A stretch of 64,000 bases of DNA from Roseateles saccharophilus (GTDB taxonomy: Bacteria; Pseudomonadota; Gammaproteobacteria; Burkholderiales; Burkholderiaceae_C), in contig NZ_SMBU01000001.1 of the NCBI RefSeq assembly GCF_004342485.1, positions 1 through 64,000 of the forward strand, in the 5' to 3' direction. Each line of letters starts with the position of its first letter. Within the stretch, counting starts at the first letter, position 1. A model generated the notes under the pieces. That model was given only the letters and a program-made list of their open reading frames with translations, did no database searches and was not told the DNA's origin. Below, one piece after another: positions 4,885 through 19,844 of the stretch. The position numbers and the translations under genes are program-made.

Positions 4885-7684
<2,800 letters not shown>

Positions 7685-7704
<20 letters not shown>

Positions 7705-9661
7705 TGCGCGCGTGCGTGCCGTCGCAGAAGGGCTTGGTCTGGCTGCCGCCGCAGCGGCACAGCCGCGCCTGGCTGACGCGGCAGACCATGCGGCCGGTGC
7801 CGCTCAGCACCTCGATGGGGCCGCGCAGCTGCAGCGGGCCGTTGGGCTCGGGCTCGATGGCGACGGGGCCGTCGCGCGTGGCCGGCATGTCGGTGGGCAG
7901 GCCGAGCAGGCCGGTCTCGGGCTCGCCGGTGGCGGCGAAATGGATGTCGTGGTGGCTGCCGTCGCAGAAGGGCTTGTTCTTGCTCGCGCCGCAGCGGCAC
8001 AGCGTGGCGCGCGTGCCCAGCGGCTCGCCGCGCAGCGTCAGTGCGCCGCGGATCGCATAGGGGCCGGCCTCGCGCACGCTCAGCAGGTTGACCGGTGGCG
8101 GTGCCTCGTCGGCCTCGCCGTCCTTGCGGCGGTACTGGATGGCGCCCGAGGGGCAGGCGTGGGCAATGTCGACGAGGCGCTCGACCGGCATCGCGTCGGG
8201 GTGGATCCAGGGCCCCTGCACATTGGCCAGGAAGACCTTGGGCGCCCCCGTCACGCAGAAGCGCGCATGAATGCAGCGCTTCGCCTCGAAACGCAGCTCC
8301 AGCTTTCCGCCCTGCACGACCTCGATGCCGTCGACGAGTTCGGTGGGCGGCGCGGCCGGCGCGGGCGCGGCGGCCGCCGCATGCACGGGCGTGGCGAGCG
8401 GTGCGGCCAGATCCAGCCCGCGCGCGGCGCGCTCGCTCAGCGACAGCAACTGGCCTGCGGCGCGGCCGGTCGCCTCGGCGCCGAGCTCGGCATGCAGGGC
8501 CGCGCCGGTTGCGGCGAGCTGGGCCAGGCGTTCGCGCACGAAGCGGCGCGCGGCCGGGCCGGGCGGGAAGCCCGCCGCGTCGCGCAGCGCGGTGAAGCTG
8601 GCGCCGGCATGGCAGCCAGGGTTGCTGGGACCGGCCGGCAGCCGCGCGGCATGTTCCGCCAGCGGCGTGAAGGCGCGCATCAGGCCCAGGGCCAGGTCGA
8701 CGGTCAGGCTCTTCTCGGCCGACGGGCCGGGCTGCAGATAGGCCATGCCCAGCAGGCGCAGCATCAGGCCATAGCTGGCATTGGCCAGGTCCACGATGGC
8801 CGCGGCGGCCGGGTTCTCCAGCCAGACCCGGCCTTCGGGCCGCGGCGGGCGGCGCAGCACCGGGTTGGTGGCGGCCGGCCAGGCCGGCGCGAAGCCGGGG
8901 TGGGCCGCGCGCAGCCCGGCCAGCTCGGCGCGGATGGCGGCGAAGCGCTGGTAGTGGGAGCGTTCGCTGTCGCTGGGCGCGCCCTCGCCCTGGCGCACGA
9001 TGGCGTCGAAGGCCGCCAGCGCGGTCTTGGAGCACAGCACGTGGCGGGCGCCACAGAGGTTGAGCTCCTCGGGGCCGAGCTGCAGCCAGCGGTCGCCGCA
9101 GAAGGCCTCGGCCTCGCCATGCGCGGCGACGAATGCGGCCAGGTCGGCGCCTAGCGTCGCGTAGAAATGGCCGACGGTGTCGTAGTCGCGCGCCATCGGC
9201 GTGATGCGCGGCGCGGCCGAGCCACGTGTGAACAGGTGCTCGGCCGAGAACCCCTCGCCGTCCTCCTCGTCGCTGCCCTCGGGGCGCTCCAGGTAGATGA
9301 AGTGCTGTAGCGTCGCGTCGTTGAAGGGCGCGAGCTTCACGACGATGCGCGCCGGCAGGTTGCCGGGGTCGAGCGGGAAGTTGCCGCGGCCCAGGCGCGG
9401 CGCGCCGCCCAGCGCTGCGGTGATGTTCCAGACCGCGACGAGATGGCCCATCTCCTCGATGGCGACGGCGGTGATCTCGCGGCGCCAGCGCTCGGTGGCC
9501 TCGGCCTCGGCAGGGCTCAGGCCCTCAGCCTCGCCGCGCTTCAGGCTGAAGGCCGCGTAGAGGTAGGTGCACATCAGGTTGTGCTCCAGCTCGGCGGCCT
9601 CGTAGAGGCTGTGCAGCAGCTGCTCGCGGCTGGGTGCCGCGGCCTGGGGGGCTGTCGTCAT
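7685..9661 (-). CDS. Ferritin-like / 4Fe-4S / double CDGSH fusion protein
   Basis: This 658-residue soluble protein joins three iron modules. Residues about 10-230 form a ferritin-like fold of the VioB/iminophenylpyruvate-dimer-synthase type, with candidate metal ligands in EAAELEHN (21-28) and the ExxH of IEEMGH (68-73). Around 415-480 is a divergent 4Fe-4S domain (Fer4_19 type: RCIHARFC ... HACPSGAI). Two perfect CDGSH iron-sulfur motifs end the protein: CRCGASKNKPFCDGSH at about 555-570 and CRCGGSQTKPFCDGTH at about 635-650. CDGSH motifs bind a redox-active, labile 2Fe-2S cluster through three Cys and one His. The enzyme reaction is unknown. The gene overlaps the start of a membrane hybrid kinase, which suggests iron, redox or oxidative-stress signalling. 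There is no export signal, so it should be cytoplasmic. Confidence 0.85.
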
Positions 9662-10946: not shown

Positions 10947-11480
10947 TCAGCCGAACAGGCGGCGCAGCCAGCCGCGCAGGCGCTGCCAAAAGCCGCTGGC
11001 CACCGCCGCTGCCGGGGCCTCCGCCGGCGGCGGATGGCGTTCGAGCAGCGCGGCCCGAAAGCGCGCGAAGAAGTCCTCGGCCAGCTTCTGCGCGGCCAGG
11101 TCGACGAGTCGCGAGCCGACCTGGGCCAGCTTGCCGCCGACGCTGGCCGTGACCGCATAGCTCAGCCGCGTCTCGGCGGGGCCGAGGGTTTCGAGTCGCA
11201 CATCGGCCTGGCCCTTGCCGTGGCCGGCTGCGCCGCCCGAACCCTCGAAGCCGATGCGATAGCTGTGTGGCGGGTTCAGCTCGGAGAGCTGGAGCCGGCC
11301 CTTGAACTTCGCCTTCACGGGCCCGATGGACACGCCCATCAACACGTCGTAGGTGTGCTCGCCCGACGGCGTGATCGCCTCGCAGCCCGGCACGGCGGCC
11401 TGCAGCATCGCGGTGTCGTTCAACGCGTCCCAGGCTTGCGCCTGGGTCACGGGCAGGATCTGTGCGCCGGTGAGGTTCAT
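10947..11480 (-). CDS. coxG: CoxG-like SRPBCC protein (CO dehydrogenase subunit G family)
   Basis: CoxG proteins are lipid-binding START/SRPBCC-fold proteins reported to help attach CO dehydrogenase to the membrane. The 177-residue sequence has the family pattern: WDALNDTAMLQAAVPGCEAI, a YDVLMGVSIGPVKAKFKG strand pair, FEGSGGAAGHGKGQADVRL, and SVGGKLAQVGSRLVDLAAQKLAEDFFARF. The last 35 residues form a linker plus an amphipathic Trp/Arg-rich end (GFWQRLRGWLRRLFG) that could contact the membrane. It is separated by 9 kb from the catalytic coxSLM genes but lies close to coxE and coxD. It follows the cytochrome genes after a hairpin and ends at a strong terminator, so it probably has its own promoter. 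Confidence 0.88.
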   Translation of the reverse strand: MNLTGAQILPVTQAQAWDALNDTAMLQAAVPGCEAITPSGEHTYDVLMGVSIGPVKAKFKGRLQLSELNPPHSYRIGFEGSGGAAGHGKGQADVRLETLGPAETRLSYAVTASVGGKLAQVGSRLVDLAAQKLAEDFFARFRAALLERHPPPAEAPAAAVASGFWQRLRGWLRRLFG

Positions 11481-11588: not shown

Positions 11589-11620
11589 GGCGCCCCGTCT
11601 CTGCAAAGACACGGGGCGCC
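11589..11620. terminator. Strong hairpin between cytochrome and coxG genes
   Basis: The arms GGCGCCCCGT and ACGGGGCGCC are exact 10-bp complements around a 12-nt loop. They lie 16 bp after the stop of the cytochrome gene. No T-tract follows on the minus strand, so it may act as a processing or stabilising structure or a weak terminator rather than a full stop. Confidence 0.5.
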
Positions 11621-11636
11621 TTGCCCGGCCCGCCGT

Positions 11637-12308
11637 TCAGCGGTTGGGCAGGGCCTGGGCGTAGGCCGCCACGTTGGCGATGTCCTCCTTGCCCAGTTCA
11701 TGCGCCACGGTCTTCATCACGGCGCCGGTCGGCACGGTCTGTGCGTCCGAGCGTTCGTCGGTGCGCTGGAACACGGTCAGCTGCTTGACCAGATAGTCCA
11801 GGTGCTGGCCGGCCAGGCGCGGGAAGATGCTGTTGCCCTGGCCCTTGTCGCCGTGGCAGCTGGCGCAGGCCGGGACGTTCTTGGCCGGAACGCCGTTCTC
11901 GAAGATGAGCTGACCGGCGGCGATGCGGGCTGCCTCGCCTTCGACCGGCTGGCGTTGCGGCGCCGACCCGGCGAAGTAGCCGGCCAGGCCATCGATCTGG
12001 GCGTCCGTAAGCGCATGGCTCAGGCCCCACATGTATTCGAAGCCGGCGGGGTCGCGGCGATGCTGGGCGCGGAAGTTCTTGAGCTGGCCGGCCAGATAGA
12101 CATCCGTCTGCCCGGCCAGGTTGGGGAAGTTCGGCGACACCGCCATTCCCGTGAGGCCGTGGCACATCGAGCAGACCTGCTGCGCGAGCACCGTGCCGGA
12201 CACGGCCGGGTTGGCCACGTCGCGCGAGCGTTCGGGGTTGGCGCAGCCGGCGGCCAGGGCGAGGGCGGCCCAGGCCGCCAGCGAAATCGTGAGTCTGGTG
12301 CGTGTCAT
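11637..12308 (-). CDS. Diheme c-type cytochrome lipoprotein (cytochrome c4-like)
   Basis: The ATG at 12308 follows a GGGAGAG ribosome-binding site, giving a 223-residue protein. A lipoprotein signal ends LALAAGC, with Cys22 as the lipidated residue. Two class I heme sites follow, CSMCH at 46-50 and CASCH at 148-152, each in a domain ending with an AxYAQAL-type helix as in cytochrome c4. It should sit in the periplasm, anchored to a membrane, and carry electrons one heme at a time. It lies only 17 bp after the Cyc2-like gene, so the two are almost certainly cotranscribed. The pairing suggests that the periplasmic cytochrome receives electrons from, or passes them to, the outer-membrane cytochrome-porin. 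Confidence 0.9.
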   Translation of the reverse strand: MTRTRLTISLAAWAALALAAGCANPERSRDVANPAVSGTVLAQQVCSMCHGLTGMAVSPNFPNLAGQTDVYLAGQLKNFRAQHRRDPAGFEYMWGLSHALTDAQIDGLAGYFAGSAPQRQPVEGEAARIAAGQLIFENGVPAKNVPACASCHGDKGQGNSIFPRLAGQHLDYLVKQLTVFQRTDERSDAQTVPTGAVMKTVAHELGKEDIANVAAYAQALPNR

Positions 12309-12325
12309 GACACTCTCCCGCGGCT

Positions 12326-13816
12326 TCAGTACGCCATCCACATGTAGAGGAACAGCGAGTTGTTGTCGCTGGCGTTGCGGCCGAAGCCGTCGTAGTTGCT
12401 CGCGGCGCCGTTGTAACGCGAGTACATCGTGTACTGGGCACCGATGCGGATGTATTGCAGCGGCATCCAGAAGGCCTCGACCGTCCAGCCGCGGGTGCCG
12501 GGGTTGCCGGACAGGTTGCCGTTCACCGGCACCGAGAGCTGCGTGGCATTGGGGTCGGTGGCCGTGATGCTCAGCGTCGTCGGATCGAAGCCGGAACTCT
12601 GGTTGGCCGTGTTGGTCGTGCCCGTCAGGCTGAACAGGCTGAGGCTGCCGCCGTAGCGCGCCTGGTAGACATAGCTGAGCTTGGCGCGCAGCAGGTGGCT
12701 GCTGTCACTGTCGCTGGTATTGGCCAGCGCATTGCCGGCCGCATCGACGAAGCCCACCGGCTGGTTGGCCTGACCGGCCGGATAGCGGTGCCGGTTGCCG
12801 GTGTAGACGAACTGGGCCGTGACTGCGTGCGGATCGAGCAGGTACTGGTATTGCGCGTCGATGCTCCAGTCGCGGAAGCGGTCGATGGTCGCGGGGTCGG
12901 TCACGTCCTGGTAGACCCGTGCCACCATGCCGCCGGTGCCGATCATCAGGCTGTGGGCACCCCACTCATGGTTCCAGGCCAGCCGCCAGTAGGGGTTGAG
13001 CCCGCGCATCTGGGTGCGAGGCGCGACGCCGCGCGTCATGAAGGACAGCGGCCCGCGTGCCGTGCCGTAGAAGCCCACCTCGCCATACCAGGTTCGGTTC
13101 AGGAAGCCGTAGGCGTTCAGGCCGGCGATGTTGCCGCCCGACGAATAGCCGGGGTAGGGCGTCGTGCCGTCGATGAACTGGTAGCTCGTCGGGCTGGGCA
13201 CGGGCACGTACTGCATCCAGGCCGCTGCGGTGTTCCAGGGGTCGGACACCGAGGGGTTGTTGTTCAGGCTCAGGCCGACGATGAGGTCGCGCTCGCCGCT
13301 GATGAAGCGGTCGGCCCAGCGGATGTCCATGTTGTCGGCATTCGTGTGGCCCGAGAAGGAACCATCGGCATTGGTGACGGCATAGGGGTTGTAGGTGACC
13401 TGCACGAAGGCGCCGACGTTGTCGGTGATCTTGCCGCCGGCGAACAGGCTGGCCGTGGCGAAGATCAGATCCTTGTCCTTCTGGAAGTCCGAGCTCGGGC
13501 TCTGGCTCTTGCTGGTGTTGGCCACCGAGGCTTCGGACGCCACGGCCATGACCGACAGCGGCACCGAGGTGCGCTGGCCCAGCGTGTAGCCGGTCAGCTT
13601 GAACATGCGGCCATAGGGCGTCAGCTCGGGGAACTGCCCGCCGGCATGGCAGGCCATGCAGTTCTGCCCGGTCTGGCGGTTGAACAGCGGGATGGCCTGG
13701 GCCGGCCTGGCGGCCAGCGCCAGCACGGCGAGCCCCAGCGTCAAGGCCCAGATCCCCCAGGCTCGTGGCCCGGCCCTGTGGCCCTGGCCACCGAGTAACA
13801 CGGTCGGATGGTTCAT
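12326..13816 (-). CDS. Cyc2-like fused monoheme cytochrome-porin of the outer membrane
   Basis: The product has 496 residues. A signal peptide ends near ARPAQA (residue 41). A short heme domain follows, IPLFNRQTGQNCMACHAGG, with CxxCH at 53-57, then the segment PELTPYGRMFKLTGY. The rest (about 80-496) is a beta-barrel of alternating aromatic strands that ends in an aromatic residue (LFLYMWMAY), as outer-membrane porins do. This layout is that of Cyc2, the fused cytochrome-porin of iron-oxidising bacteria, and the motifs on each side of the heme agree. Relatives of unknown function also occur outside iron oxidisers, so an iron substrate is not proven. The adjacent diheme lipoprotein is the expected periplasmic partner. 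The reading frame stays open far upstream, but that part lies antisense to coxE; the ATG at 13816 is the real start. Confidence 0.75.
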   Translation of the reverse strand: MNHPTVLLGGQGHRAGPRAWGIWALTLGLAVLALAARPAQAIPLFNRQTGQNCMACHAGGQFPELTPYGRMFKLTGYTLGQRTSVPLSVMAVASEASVANTSKSQSPSSDFQKDKDLIFATASLFAGGKITDNVGAFVQVTYNPYAVTNADGSFSGHTNADNMDIRWADRFISGERDLIVGLSLNNNPSVSDPWNTAAAWMQYVPVPSPTSYQFIDGTTPYPGYSSGGNIAGLNAYGFLNRTWYGEVGFYGTARGPLSFMTRGVAPRTQMRGLNPYWRLAWNHEWGAHSLMIGTGGMVARVYQDVTDPATIDRFRDWSIDAQYQYLLDPHAVTAQFVYTGNRHRYPAGQANQPVGFVDAAGNALANTSDSDSSHLLRAKLSYVYQARYGGSLSLFSLTGTTNTANQSSGFDPTTLSITATDPNATQLSVPVNGNLSGNPGTRGWTVEAFWMPLQYIRIGAQYTMYSRYNGAASNYDGFGRNASDNNSLFLYMWMAY

Positions 13817-13923: not shown

Positions 13924-15090
13924 TCAGCCCAGCGCGGCAACCAGCCGCTGCACGCTGTCCAGGTCGTGCACCGGCAGATGTCGGCTCACCTGGGGCAGCA
14001 GGGCCTTCACGCCGGCGGCGCGCGGCTCGAAGGCCGCGAAGCGCAGCAACGGGTTCAGCCACAGCAGCTCGCCGCAGGACAGGCGCAGCCGCTCGGCCTC
14101 GAAGCCCAGGCGGGCGCAGGCCGGGTCGTCGTCCGAACGCTCCAGTCCGTCGGTGACGAGCAGCACCGTCGCGTTGCCGCCGCCGAGCACACGGCGCGCC
14201 CAGTCGCGGTTGAAGGCATGCAGGTTGGCGGCGATGCGCGTGCCACCGGCCCAGTCGGGCACGGCCGCGGACACGGCGGCCAGCGCGGCGTCGGGGTCGC
14301 GCTGGCGCAGCTGGCGGGTGATGCGGGTCAGCCGCGTGCCGAACACGAAGGCCTCGACGACGGGGCGCTCGCCCATGCCGGCTGCCGGGTTCAGCAGGCC
14401 CTGGGCCAGGTGCAGCAGCACGCGCGAGTAGCGGCCCATGGAACCCGAGATGTCGGCCAGCAGCACCAGCGGCGTCGGGCGCAGGCGGGCGCGCTCGCGC
14501 TGCGGCGGGGCGCCGGCGTGGCGGCCTTCCGCGCGCAACGTCGCACGCCAGGCGATGCGCCCGCGTGGCGCGGTCTCGAAGCGGCGCGTCAGGCGCCGGG
14601 CCAGCTGCGGCTGCAGCGCGGCCAGGGCCTGGCGCGCGGCGGCCCATTCGGCGGTCGTCATCGTGTCGAAGTCGCGGCGTTGCAGCAGTTCGCGGCTGCC
14701 GGCATCGAGGCGGGCCTCGATGTCGACCGGCTCGGTGCGCGGCTGCTCCTGTAGCGCCGGCGCCGGGAACAGGGCGTCGGCCAGGCGGCGGTTCTCGGGC
14801 GGTGGCGGCGCGCCGGCGCGGCCCTGGGCCTGGGGCAGCAGCAGGGCCATGATGCGGCCGAGCAGGTCGGGGTCGCGCCAGAAGACGTGGAAGGCCTGCT
14901 CGAACAGCGGCCGGTGCTCGGGCCGGTCGACGAGGCAGGCGGCCAGCGCGGCCTTGAAGTCGGCCCGCGAGGCCAAGGCCCCGGCCTGCAGCGCCTGCGT
15001 GGCGAGCATCAGCCGGTCCGTGCCGACGGGCAGGCCGGCGGCGCGCAGCACGCGGCCGAAGTGGACGAGGTTCTCCGCCAGGTGATCCAC
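13924..15090 (-). CDS. coxE: CoxE-like VWA-domain protein
   Basis: CoxE acts with the AAA+ ATPase CoxD in maturing the active site of molybdenum-containing CO dehydrogenases. The 388-residue product starts at a GTG (VDHLAENLVHFGRVLRAAGLPVGTDR, a typical CoxE N-terminus), 8 bp after the coxD stop. The C-terminal half is a von Willebrand A domain with the MIDAS motif DISGSMGRYSR and later ATVLLVTDGLERSDDD, both intact. A central Pro-rich linker separates it from the helical N-domain. The start was chosen by the fit to family N-termini, since the frame continues upstream inside coxD. coxD and coxE form a two-gene unit that ends about 100 bp before the cytochrome-porin gene. Confidence 0.88.
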   Translation of the reverse strand: MDHLAENLVHFGRVLRAAGLPVGTDRLMLATQALQAGALASRADFKAALAACLVDRPEHRPLFEQAFHVFWRDPDLLGRIMALLLPQAQGRAGAPPPPENRRLADALFPAPALQEQPRTEPVDIEARLDAGSRELLQRRDFDTMTTAEWAAARQALAALQPQLARRLTRRFETAPRGRIAWRATLRAEGRHAGAPPQRERARLRPTPLVLLADISGSMGRYSRVLLHLAQGLLNPAAGMGERPVVEAFVFGTRLTRITRQLRQRDPDAALAAVSAAVPDWAGGTRIAANLHAFNRDWARRVLGGGNATVLLVTDGLERSDDDPACARLGFEAERLRLSCGELLWLNPLLRFAAFEPRAAGVKALLPQVSRHLPVHDLDSVQRLVAALG

Positions 15091-15098
15091 GGTCGGCC

Positions 15099-16010
15099 TC
15101 AGGCCCCGGCACGCAGCCTCAGCTCCGCCAGCAGCCGCGCCGCCTCGCCGCCCTGCATGCGGGCGATGTCGTCCTGGTATTTCAGCAGCACGCCCAGCGT
15201 CGACTGCACGGTGGCCGGGTCCAGGCTGACCGCGTTCAGCTCGACGAGGGCGCGTGACCAGTCCAGCGTCTCGGCCAGGCCGGGCAGCTTGTAGAGGTCC
15301 AGCCGCCGCAGGCCCTGCACGAAGTCGACGATCTGTCGGGCCAGTGCGGCGTCCACGCCCGGCAGACGGGCGCGCACGATGGCCAGCTCGCGTGCGGCGT
15401 CGGGGAAGTCCAGCCAGTGGTAGAGGCAGCGGCGCTTCACGGCGTCGTGGATCTCGCGGCTGCGGTTGCTCGTCAGCACGACCAGCGGCGGCGTGGCTGC
15501 GGCGATGGTGCCGAGCTCGGGGATGCTGAGCTGGAACTCGGCCAGGAACTCCAGCAGGAAGGCCTCGAAGGGCGCGTCGGCGCGGTCCAGCTCGTCGATC
15601 AGCAGCACCGGCGCGGGCGTGGTGGTGAGGGCCTGCAGCAGCGGGCGCTCGATCAGGAAGCGGCGCGCGAACAGCTCGTCCGCCGTGCGCTGGTGGTCCT
15701 GCGCCTGGGCGAGCCGGATCTCCAGCATCTGCCGCGCGTAGTTCCACTCATAGGCCGCGGCGGCCAAGTCCAGACCCTCGTAGCACTGCAGGCGGATCAG
15801 CGGCCTTTGCAGGGCCGCCGCGAGGGCCGCGGCGATGGCCGTCTTGCCCGTGCCGGGCGCGCCTTCCAGCAGCAGCGGGCGCGCCAGGCGCAGCGCCAGG
15901 AAGGCGGCCGTGGCCAGCTCGCGCGAGGGCAGATAGGCCTGGGCCTGCAGGCCGGCGGCGATGGCGTCGATGCTGCTGTGCGGGGCGGAGTCGGGCACGG
16001 CGGGCCTCAC
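15099..16010 (-). CDS. coxD: CoxD-like MoxR-type AAA+ ATPase
   Basis: This MoxR-subfamily AAA+ ATPase (about 303 residues) is the expected partner of the following CoxE protein. Walker A is GAPGTGKT, Walker B is VLLIDELDRAD, and sensor 1 is VVLTSNRSREI, followed by the MoxR-typical RRCLYHWLDFP. In Oligotropha, CoxD functions in installing the Cu and S of the CO dehydrogenase active site. The frame is open upstream but is not protein-like there. GTG codons at 16010 (VRPAVPDSAPH) or 15998 are the plausible starts. A palindrome in the divergent upstream region could control this unit and the outer-membrane gene on the other strand. Confidence 0.87.
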   Translation of the reverse strand: MRPAVPDSAPHSSIDAIAAGLQAQAYLPSRELATAAFLALRLARPLLLEGAPGTGKTAIAAALAAALQRPLIRLQCYEGLDLAAAAYEWNYARQMLEIRLAQAQDHQRTADELFARRFLIERPLLQALTTTPAPVLLIDELDRADAPFEAFLLEFLAEFQLSIPELGTIAAATPPLVVLTSNRSREIHDAVKRRCLYHWLDFPDAARELAIVRARLPGVDAALARQIVDFVQGLRRLDLYKLPGLAETLDWSRALVELNAVSLDPATVQSTLGVLLKYQDDIARMQGGEAARLLAELRLRAGA

Positions 16011-16054
16011 GGTCGGGTGGTGGCGCCCGCGAGTATGCGGCGGGCTGCATCCGC

Positions 16055-16077
16055 TAAGAACCTTGAACAGGTTCTTA
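16055..16077. promoter_or_regulatory. Operator-like inverted repeat in the divergent coxD / outer-membrane gene region
   Basis: TAAGAACC and GGTTCTTA are perfect 8-bp arms around TTGAACA. The repeat lies midway between two divergent starts, 45 bp from coxD and 91 bp from the barrel gene. Its position suits a shared transcription-factor site. No regulator gene is adjacent. Confidence 0.5.
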
Positions 16078-16167
16078 CATCTGCCCGGGAAGGAATGCGG
16101 CGCGGGCGGCGTTCTCGGGTTGAAGGGGCCGGATCGGCCGGCCCACCGGAACTCGACGGGAACATCC

Positions 16168-17055
16168 ATGAAAAAAGCGCCCCTCCTCCTCACCGCCCTG
16201 CTGATCGCCGGCCTCGCCCATGCCGACGAAGCCGCCCCCAACGCCGACAAGCGTGCCCTCAACCTCGCCGTGCAGCGTGACGGCCAGCACAACCAGAGCG
16301 CCGCGGCGGCCGTCAGCCTGCCGGTGGGCGACAGCGCCTGGGTGCAGGCCGGCGTCGGCGAATCGCGCAGCCGCGATGCCGCCAGCGGCGTCGTCTACAG
16401 GCCCAGGCAGGTGTCGCTGGGCGGCGGCGTGGCCGGCAAACGCTGGCAGGCCAGCCTCAACGCCAGCCAGCGCCGCGACGGCAGCGCGCTGCGCCAGAAC
16501 GACGTGGCCGCCGCGGTGGACTGGAAACCGACGGACGGCGTCATGGTCGGCGTCGACGCGGCCACCCGCAACGCCCGCACGCGGGGTACGCTGGCTGCCA
16601 ACGGCGTGGGTGCTGCAACGCCGGTGGAGCAGCGCATCAAGGGCCACGGCGTGGGCGTGCATGGCGCTGTCGACCTGACTCAGCGCCTGAGCGTCTACGG
16701 CGCCACGATGCACAACCGCTACACGACGACCACGACGCAAGAGACGAACGGCGGCGGCCTGCTGGCGGGTGTGCCGCTGCTGCACAAGGGCGTCTCGGCC
16801 ATCAACCGCGACGAGGCCGCGCTGGACCGCAGCAGCCAGGTCGGCGCGACCTGGCGCGTCAGCGACCGCGTGGCGCTCAATGGCGAACTGCAGCAGGACC
16901 GCCTGCACGATGGCGGCAGCCTGCGCAGCGTGCAGATGAAGGCCGCAGTCGGCGTCGGGGCCGGCTGGACCCTCGCCCCCGGCATCGGCCACAGCCGCGG
17001 GCCGCAGGGCGAGAGCACGAACTACGGCTTGCTGGGGGCGAGCTACAACTGGTGA
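16168..17055 (+). CDS. Predicted outer-membrane beta-barrel protein, unknown family
   Basis: The product is 295 residues with a clear signal peptide (MKKAPLLLTALLIAGLAHA). The mature part is built from alternating polar and hydrophobic strands (SAWVQAGVGESRSR, VSLGGGVAGKRWQASLNASQ) and ends YGLLGASYNW. The terminal aromatic residue and the strand pattern are those of outer-membrane barrels with about 12-14 strands. I cannot assign a family or a substrate. An ATG 8 bp after a CGACGGGAAC tract is the natural start. It is divergent from coxD and shares with it a short region containing a palindrome. A large palindromic repeat follows directly after its stop. Confidence 0.65.
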   Translation: MKKAPLLLTALLIAGLAHADEAAPNADKRALNLAVQRDGQHNQSAAAAVSLPVGDSAWVQAGVGESRSRDAASGVVYRPRQVSLGGGVAGKRWQASLNASQRRDGSALRQNDVAAAVDWKPTDGVMVGVDAATRNARTRGTLAANGVGAATPVEQRIKGHGVGVHGAVDLTQRLSVYGATMHNRYTTTTTQETNGGGLLAGVPLLHKGVSAINRDEAALDRSSQVGATWRVSDRVALNGELQQDRLHDGGSLRSVQMKAAVGVGAGWTLAPGIGHSRGPQGESTNYGLLGASYNW

Positions 17056-18101: not shown

Positions 18102-19844
18102 ATGGCAGGCATGGAACCGATTCCAATTCTTCGCCTCGCCTTGTCCGCCTGCGTTCTCGCCGCCTCGATGCATGCGCAGGCCGGGCCGCCGGACTTCGGC
18201 CCCCATGTCCACGTCCTGAACCCGGCCACGCCGGGCCTGCAGCAGCGCATCCTGGACATCTACGAGGCCCAGCAGCCCAACCACTTCGGGCCGCGTCGCG
18301 ACGCCATCCTGCTGATGCCGGGGCGCTACGAGAACCTGCGCATCCCGGTCGGCTTCTTCACCCAGGTGCTGGGCCTGGGCGCACAGCCGGACGACGTGGA
18401 CGTCGTCGGCGACCTGCGCTCCACGGCGCTGCTGGACAACGACAACGCGACGGTGAACTTCTGGCGCGGCGCCGAGAACTTCGCGATCACGCCGACGCTG
18501 GGCATCGGCGACAACACCATGCAATGGGCCGTGTCCCAGGCCATTCCGTTCCGGCGCATGCATGTGCGCGGCAACATGCGGCTCAACCAGAAGAACGGCT
18601 GGGCCAGCGGCGGCTGGTTCGCGGACGTGCGGGTGGACGGCCGCGTCGACTCGGCGACGCAGCAGCAATGGATCTCGCGCAACAGCGAGTGGGGCCGCTG
18701 GACGGGTTCGAACTGGAACATGGTCTTTGTCGGCGTGCCGCAGGCGCCGGCCGGCGAGTTCCCGGCACCGGGCGAGCGCTTCACCCGCGTCGACAGGACG
18801 CCGGTCGTGCGCGAGAAGCCTTATCTGTTTGTCGACAAGGACGGTGGCTATGCGGTGCGCGTGCCGGCGCTGCGGCATGACAGCGCGGGCATCTCCTGGG
18901 CCGGCGGCGCCGTCGCGCCGGGCCGGACCCTGCCCATCAGCCGGTTCTTCATCGCCAGGCCGGGCGACACGGCTGCGAAGATCAACGCCCAGCTCGCCGC
19001 CGGCAAACACCTGCTGCTCACGCCCGGAGAATACCTGCTGACGCAGCCGTTGCTGCTCAACCGCCCCGGCACCGTCGTGCTGGGCATAGGCCTGCCGACG
19101 CTGCGCTCGGACAACGGCCAGGCCCTCGTGAAGACGGCGGACGCGGACGGGTTGACGGTGGCCGGCCTGTTCCTCGATGCCGGCCGGCGGGACTCGGGCG
19201 TGCTGATGGAGGTGGGCAGGCCGGGTGGCGGCAGGCGCCACCGCGCCGACCCCATCGCTCTGCACGATGTGTTCTTCCGCATCGGCGGCGCAGCGGCCGG
19301 CCGGGTGGGCACGGCCCTGCGCATCCATGCCCACGACACCCTCGTCGACCACACCTGGATCTGGCGCGCCGACCATGGCGAAGGCGTCGGCTGGACGAGC
19401 AACCCCGCCGCCCACGGCCTGGTCGTCGATGGCGAGGACGTGACCGTCTACGGTCTCTTCGTCGAGCATTTCCAGCAGGAACAGGTGCTCTGGCGCGGCA
19501 ATGGCGGGCGGGTCTACTTCTACCAGTCCGAGATCCCCTACGACCCGCCGACGCAGGCCGAATGGACCAGCGCCACGGGCCGCGGCTTCGCGTCGTACAA
19601 GGTGGCGGATTCCGTGACGAGCCATGAGGCCTGGGGCCTGGGCGTCTACAGCGTCTTCTTGAAGCCCGGCGTCGTGCTGGACCGCGCGATCGAGGTGCCT
19701 GAGAAGCCCGGCGTGCGCCTGCACCACATGATCACGGTCTGCCTCGTCGACAAGGGCAGCATCGAGCACGTCGCCAACGACGCGGGCGACGCCGCGCACT
19801 GCCAGGGTGGCAGCAACACGGCGACGCTGAACGAGTTTCCTTAG
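18102..19844 (+). CDS. Secreted right-handed beta-helix protein (pectin-lyase-like fold)
   Basis: The product (580 residues, or 577 from the ATG at 18111) has a signal peptide ending near SMHAQA. It opens with a pattern seen in parallel beta-helix proteins, [21 protein letters not shown] ... [19 protein letters not shown]. Successive short strands and asparagine turns follow. A second repeat set begins at [22 protein letters not shown] and continues [38 protein letters not shown]. Such folds are common in pectate lyases, GH55 glucanases and carbohydrate epimerases. I see no motif that fixes the activity. It should be periplasmic or extracellular and may act on polysaccharides. It stands alone between the DUF924 gene and the convergent coxM. 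Confidence 0.6.

Follow-up and report, generated by a model that had tools for sequence, protein, structure and literature searches.

A Cyc2-family cytochrome-porin paired with a cytochrome c4-like lipoprotein in Roseateles saccharophilus: a candidate outer-membrane electron-uptake module

The gene pair

The window analyzed here, the first 64,000 nucleotides of contig NZ_SMBU01000001.1 of Roseateles saccharophilus, contains a two-gene cassette in which a gene for a monoheme cytochrome fused to a predicted beta-barrel is followed by a gene for a diheme cytochrome lipoprotein. An initial annotation, made from the sequence alone, had proposed a Cyc2-like extracellular electron conduit at this position. 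Its coordinates, the 496-residue length of the porin, the motifs, and the 17-bp spacing were borne out by translation; it had left unstated that the coding strand of both genes is the minus strand. The features of the pair are as follows.

12326..13816, minus strand: cytochrome-porin assigned to the Cyc2 family, 496 aa (translation, AlphaFold2 model, tree)
About residues 1-41 of the minus-strand porin gene product: signal peptide, a hydrophobic N-terminal segment ending in AQA
Residues 42-86 of the porin: monoheme segment, with CxxCH at 53-57 (translation)
Residues 87-495 of the porin: predicted 16-strand beta-barrel (AlphaFold2 model)
13640..13693, minus strand: stretch coding for the heme-binding N terminus (IPLFNRQTGQNCMACHAG, residues 42-59), with the Cyc2 motif, in which N46 replaces the usual A, and CxxCH
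11637..12308, minus strand: diheme cytochrome c4-like lipoprotein, 223 aa (translation, two Pfam Cytochrom_C matches, relationship to 1h1o)

The 496 residues of the porin include AIPLFNRQTGQNCMACHAGGQFPELTPYGRMFK and a single CxxCH; the segment that carries this motif, IPLFNRQTGQNCMACHAGGQFPELTPYGRMFKLTGYT, lies downstream of AQA and is followed by a long C-terminal part. The second gene product has a lipobox (LAAGC), two CxxCH motifs, and two Pfam Cytochrom_C stretches, and the residue after its lipid cysteine is Ala, not Asp. Lipoproteins with Ala rather than Asp at this position are sorted to the outer membrane under the usual rule, which therefore points to an outer-membrane location. The gap between the porin stop and the diheme start is 17 bp (12309-12325). 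Both genes are under purifying selection relative to the closest sampled relative (nonsynonymous divergence, dN, 0.080 for each; synonymous divergence, dS, 0.405 and 0.443), and the porin gene is single copy in its 5.77-Mb genome. The two-gene cassette is thereby confirmed as real.

The porin matched no Pfam or NCBIfam family at an E value of 0.001, and a phmmer search of solved structures returned nothing credible (best E value, 0.26). A scan for consensus-type promoters and terminators gave none for the pair. A strong inverted repeat lacking a T run (GGCGCCCCGTGTC...GACGGGGCGCC, minus strand) lies at 11590-11625, between the c4 gene and coxG, and is absent from the list produced by the terminator scan.

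Relationship to Cyc2 proteins

The porin has the size and architecture given for Cyc2 in PMC8406198 (a single CxxCH, fusion to a porin, and at least 365 aa), and its predicted model has the 16-strand barrel of the family. It aligns across almost its entire length, at 28% identity, with the Cyc2 of genome G685 (BLASTP; E value, 5e-52), a protein recognized as rus-operon type from its operon. That operon runs through a cupredoxin-like gene (judged by eye, with no Pfam match), COX2, COX1, two small genes, CtaA, UbiA, and a copper-binding protein, which scored 137.2 bits against the rusticyanin model and so did not reach its cut-off of 146.7. The order is near that shown for Acidihalobacter in PMC10654088, minus the cyc1 gene.

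A tree of 122 sequences placed the window porin as sister to that of G014, from the same genus (support, 100), followed by a plasmid gene of Ideonella dechloratans (99). These belong to an inner clade of 92 sequences (99) nested within a clade of 101 (97). Together with the G685 proteins and plasmid copies from Acidithiobacillus ferrooxidans and others, the clade of 101 was split from 10 cluster-1-type sequences with a Shimodaira-Hasegawa-like approximate likelihood ratio (SH-aLRT) of 100, the cluster 1 label having been assigned by us from an ARQ.GMxCxxCH..HFP-like motif. The tree was built by a quick method that left 29 of 116 inner branches open, and it carries a long-branch warning for the rus-operon (G685) pair and others; branch order near the rus copy is weakly supported. 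It took in no Cluster 3 sequences, left out L070 (incomplete), L052, and two named sequences of ≤415 residues (L120 and L155), and includes three sampled-genome sequences identical to named ones. A profile-profile comparison of the window side with nine cluster-1-type sequences gave a probability of 99.6 per cent. The BLASTP match to the rus-operon copy, the tree, and the profile match indicate common descent with Cyc2. On these sequence comparisons the porin is a Cyc2-family protein. In the tree it falls with the G685 rus-operon protein and the plasmid copy of A. ferrooxidans, on the opposite side from the cluster-1-type sequences, and is a candidate member of Cluster 2.

The published Cyc2 motif is AXPXFAR[Q/K][T/Y] ahead of CxxCH, with PXL four residues past it (PMC8406198). 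The window porin reads AIPLFNRQT, retaining six of the seven fixed positions with N in place of the second A, and its PEL comes five residues past CxxCH. FNR occurs in 3 of the 122 sequences (the window, G014, and I. dechloratans), FAR occurs in 114, and other variants occur in 5. The published tree screen, as given in PMC8406198, used PXFAR[Q/K][T/Y] and would therefore have excluded the window lineage; motif screens can overlook Cyc2 members. The spacer from CxxCH to PxL (or PxI) is five residues long in all 92 inner-clade sequences, a length that no sequence of the outer nine in the clade of 101 shows. Because four sequences outside that clade (L061, L062, L066, and Polymorphobacter) share it, this length is not a unique marker of the inner clade. 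The spacer has three residues in 15 sequences, the rus-operon copy included, and four in the 10 cluster-1-type sequences, so the spacing varies across the family; in one sequence no such spacer was found.

Compared with the rus-operon Cyc2 of the A. ferrooxidans type, the window porin shares the single N-terminal CxxCH fused to a barrel and a C-terminal SNYDG.GRNASDNN.L region but differs in its spacer (five versus three residues) and in having FNR rather than FAR. A. ferrooxidans cyc2 is followed by cyc1, a cytochrome c4 (PMC10654088), akin to the window pair. Unlike the rus-operon system, the window pair has no adjoining cupredoxin, oxidase, or rusticyanin genes, and its partner bears a lipobox. 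Cluster 1 Cyc2 (Mariprofundus PV-1 and Gallionellaceae) has the same domain order and an AxPxF.RQTG..C..CH opening, but it is set apart by a long branch (SH-aLRT, 100) and a four-residue spacer, and BLASTP similarity to it is limited to about residues 22-141. When plasmids were searched with a cluster-1-type protein, five partial matches resulted, without a named cluster 1 reference. MtoAB, PioAB, and MtrAB likewise combine a porin and a cytochrome for outer-membrane electron transfer, but they have a larger porin of about 26 strands with a separate decaheme cytochrome (PMC10654088), in contrast to the single heme segment fused to a predicted 16-strand barrel here. The MtrB/PioB model TIGR03509 had no match in the R. 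saccharophilus genome, but control genomes were equally silent.

Predicted fold and heme site

The AlphaFold2 model of the porin, built from a 54-sequence alignment, had a mean predicted local distance difference test score (pLDDT) of 83.4 and a predicted template modeling score (pTM) of 0.81. The initial annotation had proposed looking for a heme plug inside a 16-strand barrel; in the model, 16 strands of at least three residues were found, spanning residues 87-495 (DSSP). The best fold matches were the 16-strand general porins PorB, OmpC, and OmpF (Z, about 22; root mean square deviation, 3.3 to 4.3 across about 300 residues). For the Cyc2 of Mariprofundus, PMC8406198 likewise describes the fusion of a monoheme cytochrome with a barrel of 16 predicted strands.

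The orientation of the heme segment can be considered from the order of the chain. In general porins, the chain ends face the periplasm, and strand 1 comes after the heme segment, which should therefore enter the barrel from the periplasmic side. Residues 38-61, including the heme site, had pLDDT values of <50. Met90 (PLSVM, at the start of strand 1) was invariant in all 54 sequences of alignment A3 and is Leu in cluster-1-type rows of alignment A1; it is a candidate sixth heme ligand.

The c4 lipoprotein partner

As a single chain with two class I cytochrome c domains, the diheme lipoprotein has the defining arrangement of cytochrome c4, which it shares with cytochrome c4/Cyc1 (1h1o). That entry was its best solved relative (E value, 2.1e-31), with 6q2u and 1etp also among the best. 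PMC5982212 presents 1h1o as the cytochrome c4 in the iron respiratory chain of A. ferrooxidans, although the methods of the same paper give a different species for it. The A. ferrooxidans c4 is listed there as periplasmic, in contrast to the window protein with its lipobox. The initial description of a fused monoheme Cyc2-like cytochrome-porin with a diheme partner thus agrees with the 16-strand model, the identity to the rus-operon Cyc2, and the match to 1h1o.

The pairing is nearly constant in the subclade. Among named genomes, a scan with the pattern A[LVI]PxFARQTG, which could not return FNR members, gave at least 598 pattern matches, at least 586 of which were confirmed as relatives, and the best 80 of these were taken as named loci; they are related rather than independent. 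Those with at least 700 bases behind the porin gene (77 of the 80) were testable, and a diheme homologue lay directly behind the porin gene in 76 of the 77 (tblastn). In the sole exception, L146, it lay directly in front. When two loci with shorter flanks were added, 68 of the 78 adjoining diheme genes had a lipobox-type motif (counted at 8 to 40 residues ahead of the first heme motif) and 76 had two CxxCH motifs. Six of the 10 lipobox exceptions (L166, L168, L170, L171, L174, and L175) have plain signal-peptide-like starts and fall among the outer nine of the clade of 101; possession of a lipid anchor tracks the inner clade.

On the window's side of the tree, with the window itself not counted, a diheme gene was found by tblastn behind the porin in 20 of 26 sampled-genome loci (it was missing there in L044, L059, L061, L062, L063, and L066), and a c4 gene adjoined the porin in two of nine testable cluster-1-type loci. 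The partner was directly behind the porin in three of six plasmid loci. It is upstream of the porin gene on the Paraburkholderia OLGA172 plasmid, and the A. ferrooxidans and Polymorphobacter plasmid records have a shorter annotated c-type cytochrome behind the porin that does not match the partner. In the literature searched, we found no description of a constant pairing of cyc2 with a c4 lipoprotein.

Distribution

Porin matches at an E value of 0.001 were found in 12 of 60 relatives, including the genome itself, and in 92 of the order's 399 sampled genomes, including distant Cyc2 types; wider stretches were taken from 40 genomes hand-picked from these two sets. Within the genus, 5 of 20 genomes had any match and 2 of 20 had a close copy, R. 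saccharophilus counted in both, so presence is patchy. The best 80 named loci include Ramlibacter, Polaromonas, Rhodoferax, Sulfuricella, Thiobacillus, Undibacterium, Paraburkholderia, Burkholderia, Trinickia, and Pseudomonas fluorescens, and many are metagenome assemblies. One copy in a metagenome-assembled genome labeled Rhizobium sp. (L141) is almost identical to a copy labeled Thiobacillus denitrificans (branches of about 0.005) and probably reflects a contig that was binned or labeled wrongly.

Homologues are present in nine plasmid records, at 70.9% identity in one and at <60% in the other eight. In I. dechloratans the plasmid copies of the two genes are LRM40_RS20000 and LRM40_RS19995. 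On L093, a plasmid of A. ferrooxidans YQ-N3, the Cyc2-type gene at 6890-8257 has the same score against the window porin as that at 1384-2637 of the Acidiphilium cryptum plasmid NC_009469.1; plasmid exchange and a mis-assigned record are both possible explanations.

Proposed mechanism and electron donor

The two genes probably form a Cyc2-type electron-uptake module that passes electrons to the c4 lipoprotein, with dissolved Fe(II) as the most likely donor. Several lines of evidence lead to this interpretation, namely, the 16-strand model, the similarity to the rus-operon Cyc2, the tree, the profile link to cluster-1-type sequences, the relationship of the partner to 1h1o, the near-constant pairing, and the presence of genes for high-potential iron-sulfur proteins (HiPIPs), two in the R. 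saccharophilus genome and others beside the pair in L049 and Caballeronia SBC1. The porin would be exported, gain one c-type heme, and fold as a 16-strand outer-membrane barrel, with the heme segment entering on the periplasmic side. At or in the barrel, the heme would oxidize a small reductant in solution, most likely Fe2+, and the electron would pass to the diheme c4-type lipoprotein, whose lipid anchor probably holds it to the outer membrane on the inner face. Soluble periplasmic carriers, e.g., HiPIP, might then relay it to the respiratory chain. As a candidate outer-membrane electron-transfer module, the pair is supported by the model, the identity to the rus-operon Cyc2, and the c4 partner.

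Several points weigh against Fe(II) oxidation by this pair. First, we infer that activity for the subclade from sequence, and for one Cluster 2 homologue distant from the Acidithiobacillus protein, PMC10734462 cautions that iron oxidation is unassignable without context. Second, the motif has N for the consensus A, and the CxxCH-PxL spacing departs from the published consensus. Third, the heme segment, and with it the putative heme-in-barrel arrangement, was modeled at low pLDDT. Fourth, the rus operon used for comparison (G685) has no c4 gene beside Cyc2 (zero of two loci). Fifth, many carriers (Burkholderia, Paraburkholderia, and Pseudomonas fluorescens) are, to our knowledge, not known as iron oxidizers. 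Finally, G014, the nearest sampled carrier, has no RuBisCO match, so the module does not track autotrophy.

The same conduit could serve another donor. Members of the subclade, with their longer heme loop, would then oxidize Cu(I) or some other metal, a small organic reductant, or a sulfur compound and pass electrons to the c4 lipoprotein. The inner clade does have its own heme-loop length, and the sulfur oxidizers Sulfuricella and Thiobacillus are among the carriers. Some neighbors also fit: resistance-nodulation-division (RND) efflux pump genes lie beside the module in a few loci (L060, with the same cluster in L051 and L052), and a pyridine-nucleotide-disulfide oxidoreductase in L048 is sulfide:quinone reductase-like by eye, with related genes in seven loci. 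However, no neighbor is general except the c4 gene; the next most frequent family, YceI, occurs in 18 of 110 loci (by crude gene calls, with several clusters that resembled antisense frames excluded from the neighbor counts). In addition, PMC12285272 reports growth on ferrous iron for Sulfuriferula isolates that have cyc1 and whose cyc2 most resembles cluster 2. Sulfuriferula is not among the best 80 named loci, but Sulfuricella is. Overall, we regard a different donor as unlikely, although it is the strongest of the alternatives to Fe(II).

Protective oxidation, in which a ferroxidase-like device near the surface or in the barrel limits Fenton chemistry with little energy gained, would suit the patchy presence of the module (a close copy in only two genus genomes, one of them R. 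saccharophilus). It would also suit the hemerythrin-type genes near the module in a cluster of five loci, with a Pfam Hemerythrin match in L049. The retention of a dedicated diheme carrier in nearly every subclade copy is, by contrast, what would be expected if the electrons were used, and protection is improbable. Reduction of an extracellular acceptor by the module is far more so: conduits can in principle run both ways, but a single heme in a barrel fits a small soluble partner, and the Cyc2 proteins with described activity oxidize Fe(II), as reported in PMC8406198.

If the pair does oxidize Fe(II), as we favor, iron oxidation would extend to common soil and freshwater Betaproteobacteria not counted as iron oxidizers. 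The presence of cyc2 in genomes beyond the known iron oxidizers, and with it a wider occurrence of iron oxidation, has already been raised in PMC8406198, and Cluster 2 cyc2 has been published for Leptothrix-Sphaerotilus and Sulfuriferula. New here are the near-constant c4 lipoprotein pairing, the heme-loop length as a nonunique mark of the inner clade, and the evidence from relatives, described below, for an incidental cox setting. The c4 lipoprotein offers a second gene to test and, within the subclade, a stricter marker than cyc2 alone. A bolder proposal can be put forward only tentatively and is possible rather than probable: the porin and c4 lipoprotein may constitute a single outer-membrane complex that is obligate, self-contained, and movable and that represents a distinct Cyc2 subtype, marked by a heme loop of five residues; through it, very many supposedly heterotrophic Burkholderiales, some via plasmids, might gain an unrecognized Fe(II) electron supplement to organic growth.

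The cox setting

The module is flanked on one side by genes for a VWA_CoxE protein and a MadB/MoxR-like AAA protein and on the other by coxG. The nearest neighbors, both outside the module, are the following.

13924..15111, minus strand: CoxE-like VWA protein (Pfam VWA_CoxE)
10947..11480, minus strand: CoxG (Pfam COXG)

From the position between coxDE and coxG, the initial annotation had drawn the suggestion that a heterotroph or CO or aldehyde oxidizer exchanges electrons with an extracellular donor. Comparison with other genomes gives this inference no support. A CoxE search of 40 relatives gave 20 loci, that of R. saccharophilus included; in the 19 others, the porin was never present and CoxG was near CoxE in 17, the exceptions being L191 (a short locus) and L197. 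In G014, coxE and coxG are close together and the module is elsewhere (L042). Conversely, 112 other module loci (26 from sampled genomes, 80 named, and 6 plasmid, with flanks that reach about 10 kb at most and are often shorter) had no match to CoxE, MoxR, CoxG, or the molybdenum (Mo)-hydroxylase large subunit at an E value of 0.001, and the window, as a control, matched all four. From both counts, the cox genes say nothing on the function of the module, and its place between them looks accidental.

These counts also bear on a possible role of the module as electron acceptor for the Mo-hydroxylase of the cox cluster, for which its position on the same strand between coxE and coxG could be cited. 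Mo-hydroxylases of this kind are cytoplasmic, and neither the relatives' coxE loci nor the other module loci keep the two together, nor does G014; we give this idea very little credence. The large subunit scored 642.7 bits against TIGR02416 (CO dehydrogenase), below the cut-off of 991.15, and its sequence reads AYRGAGR, in place of AYXCSFR, the active site of form I aerobic CO dehydrogenase. Identification of the neighboring Mo-hydroxylase as that enzyme is not supported.

In G005 and G014, little DNA separates CoxE from CoxG. In G012 this interval is filled by a different small gene, BON-like by eye (L185, 2630-3200), and several further relatives have a gap of similar size to that of G012. 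The coxE-coxG gap may be a recurrent insertion point.

Metabolic setting and other reading frames

The R. saccharophilus genome encodes a RuBisCO large subunit (536.4 bits; cut-off, 438) near CbbX (514 bits; cut-off, 459.25) and has matches to the [NiFe] hydrogenase large subunit at two places on the same contig. The term heterotroph in the initial annotation is therefore too narrow, and from its gene content the organism may be a facultative lithoautotroph. With the module upheld as a candidate and the cox inference abandoned, that annotation's interpretation is partly supported. An association between Cyc2 and RuBisCO in 60 genomes (7 of 12 versus 10 of 48; Fisher P = 0.027) is not relied on; RuBisCO was counted at >400 bits with a post hoc cut-off, kinship was ignored, and the nearest carrier has none.

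Three other frames in the window were noted. The plus-strand frame at 15961-17055 (364 aa) has an inner signal-peptide-like start and appears by eye to be an exported repeat-rich or barrel protein, and that at 18102-19844 (plus strand, 580 residues) also appears exported; neither had a Pfam or NCBIfam match. The minus-strand frame at 7685-9661 combines a Ferritin-like domain (weakly VioB-like in NCBIfam), Fer4_19, and two CDGSH stretches in one chain, an unusual set.

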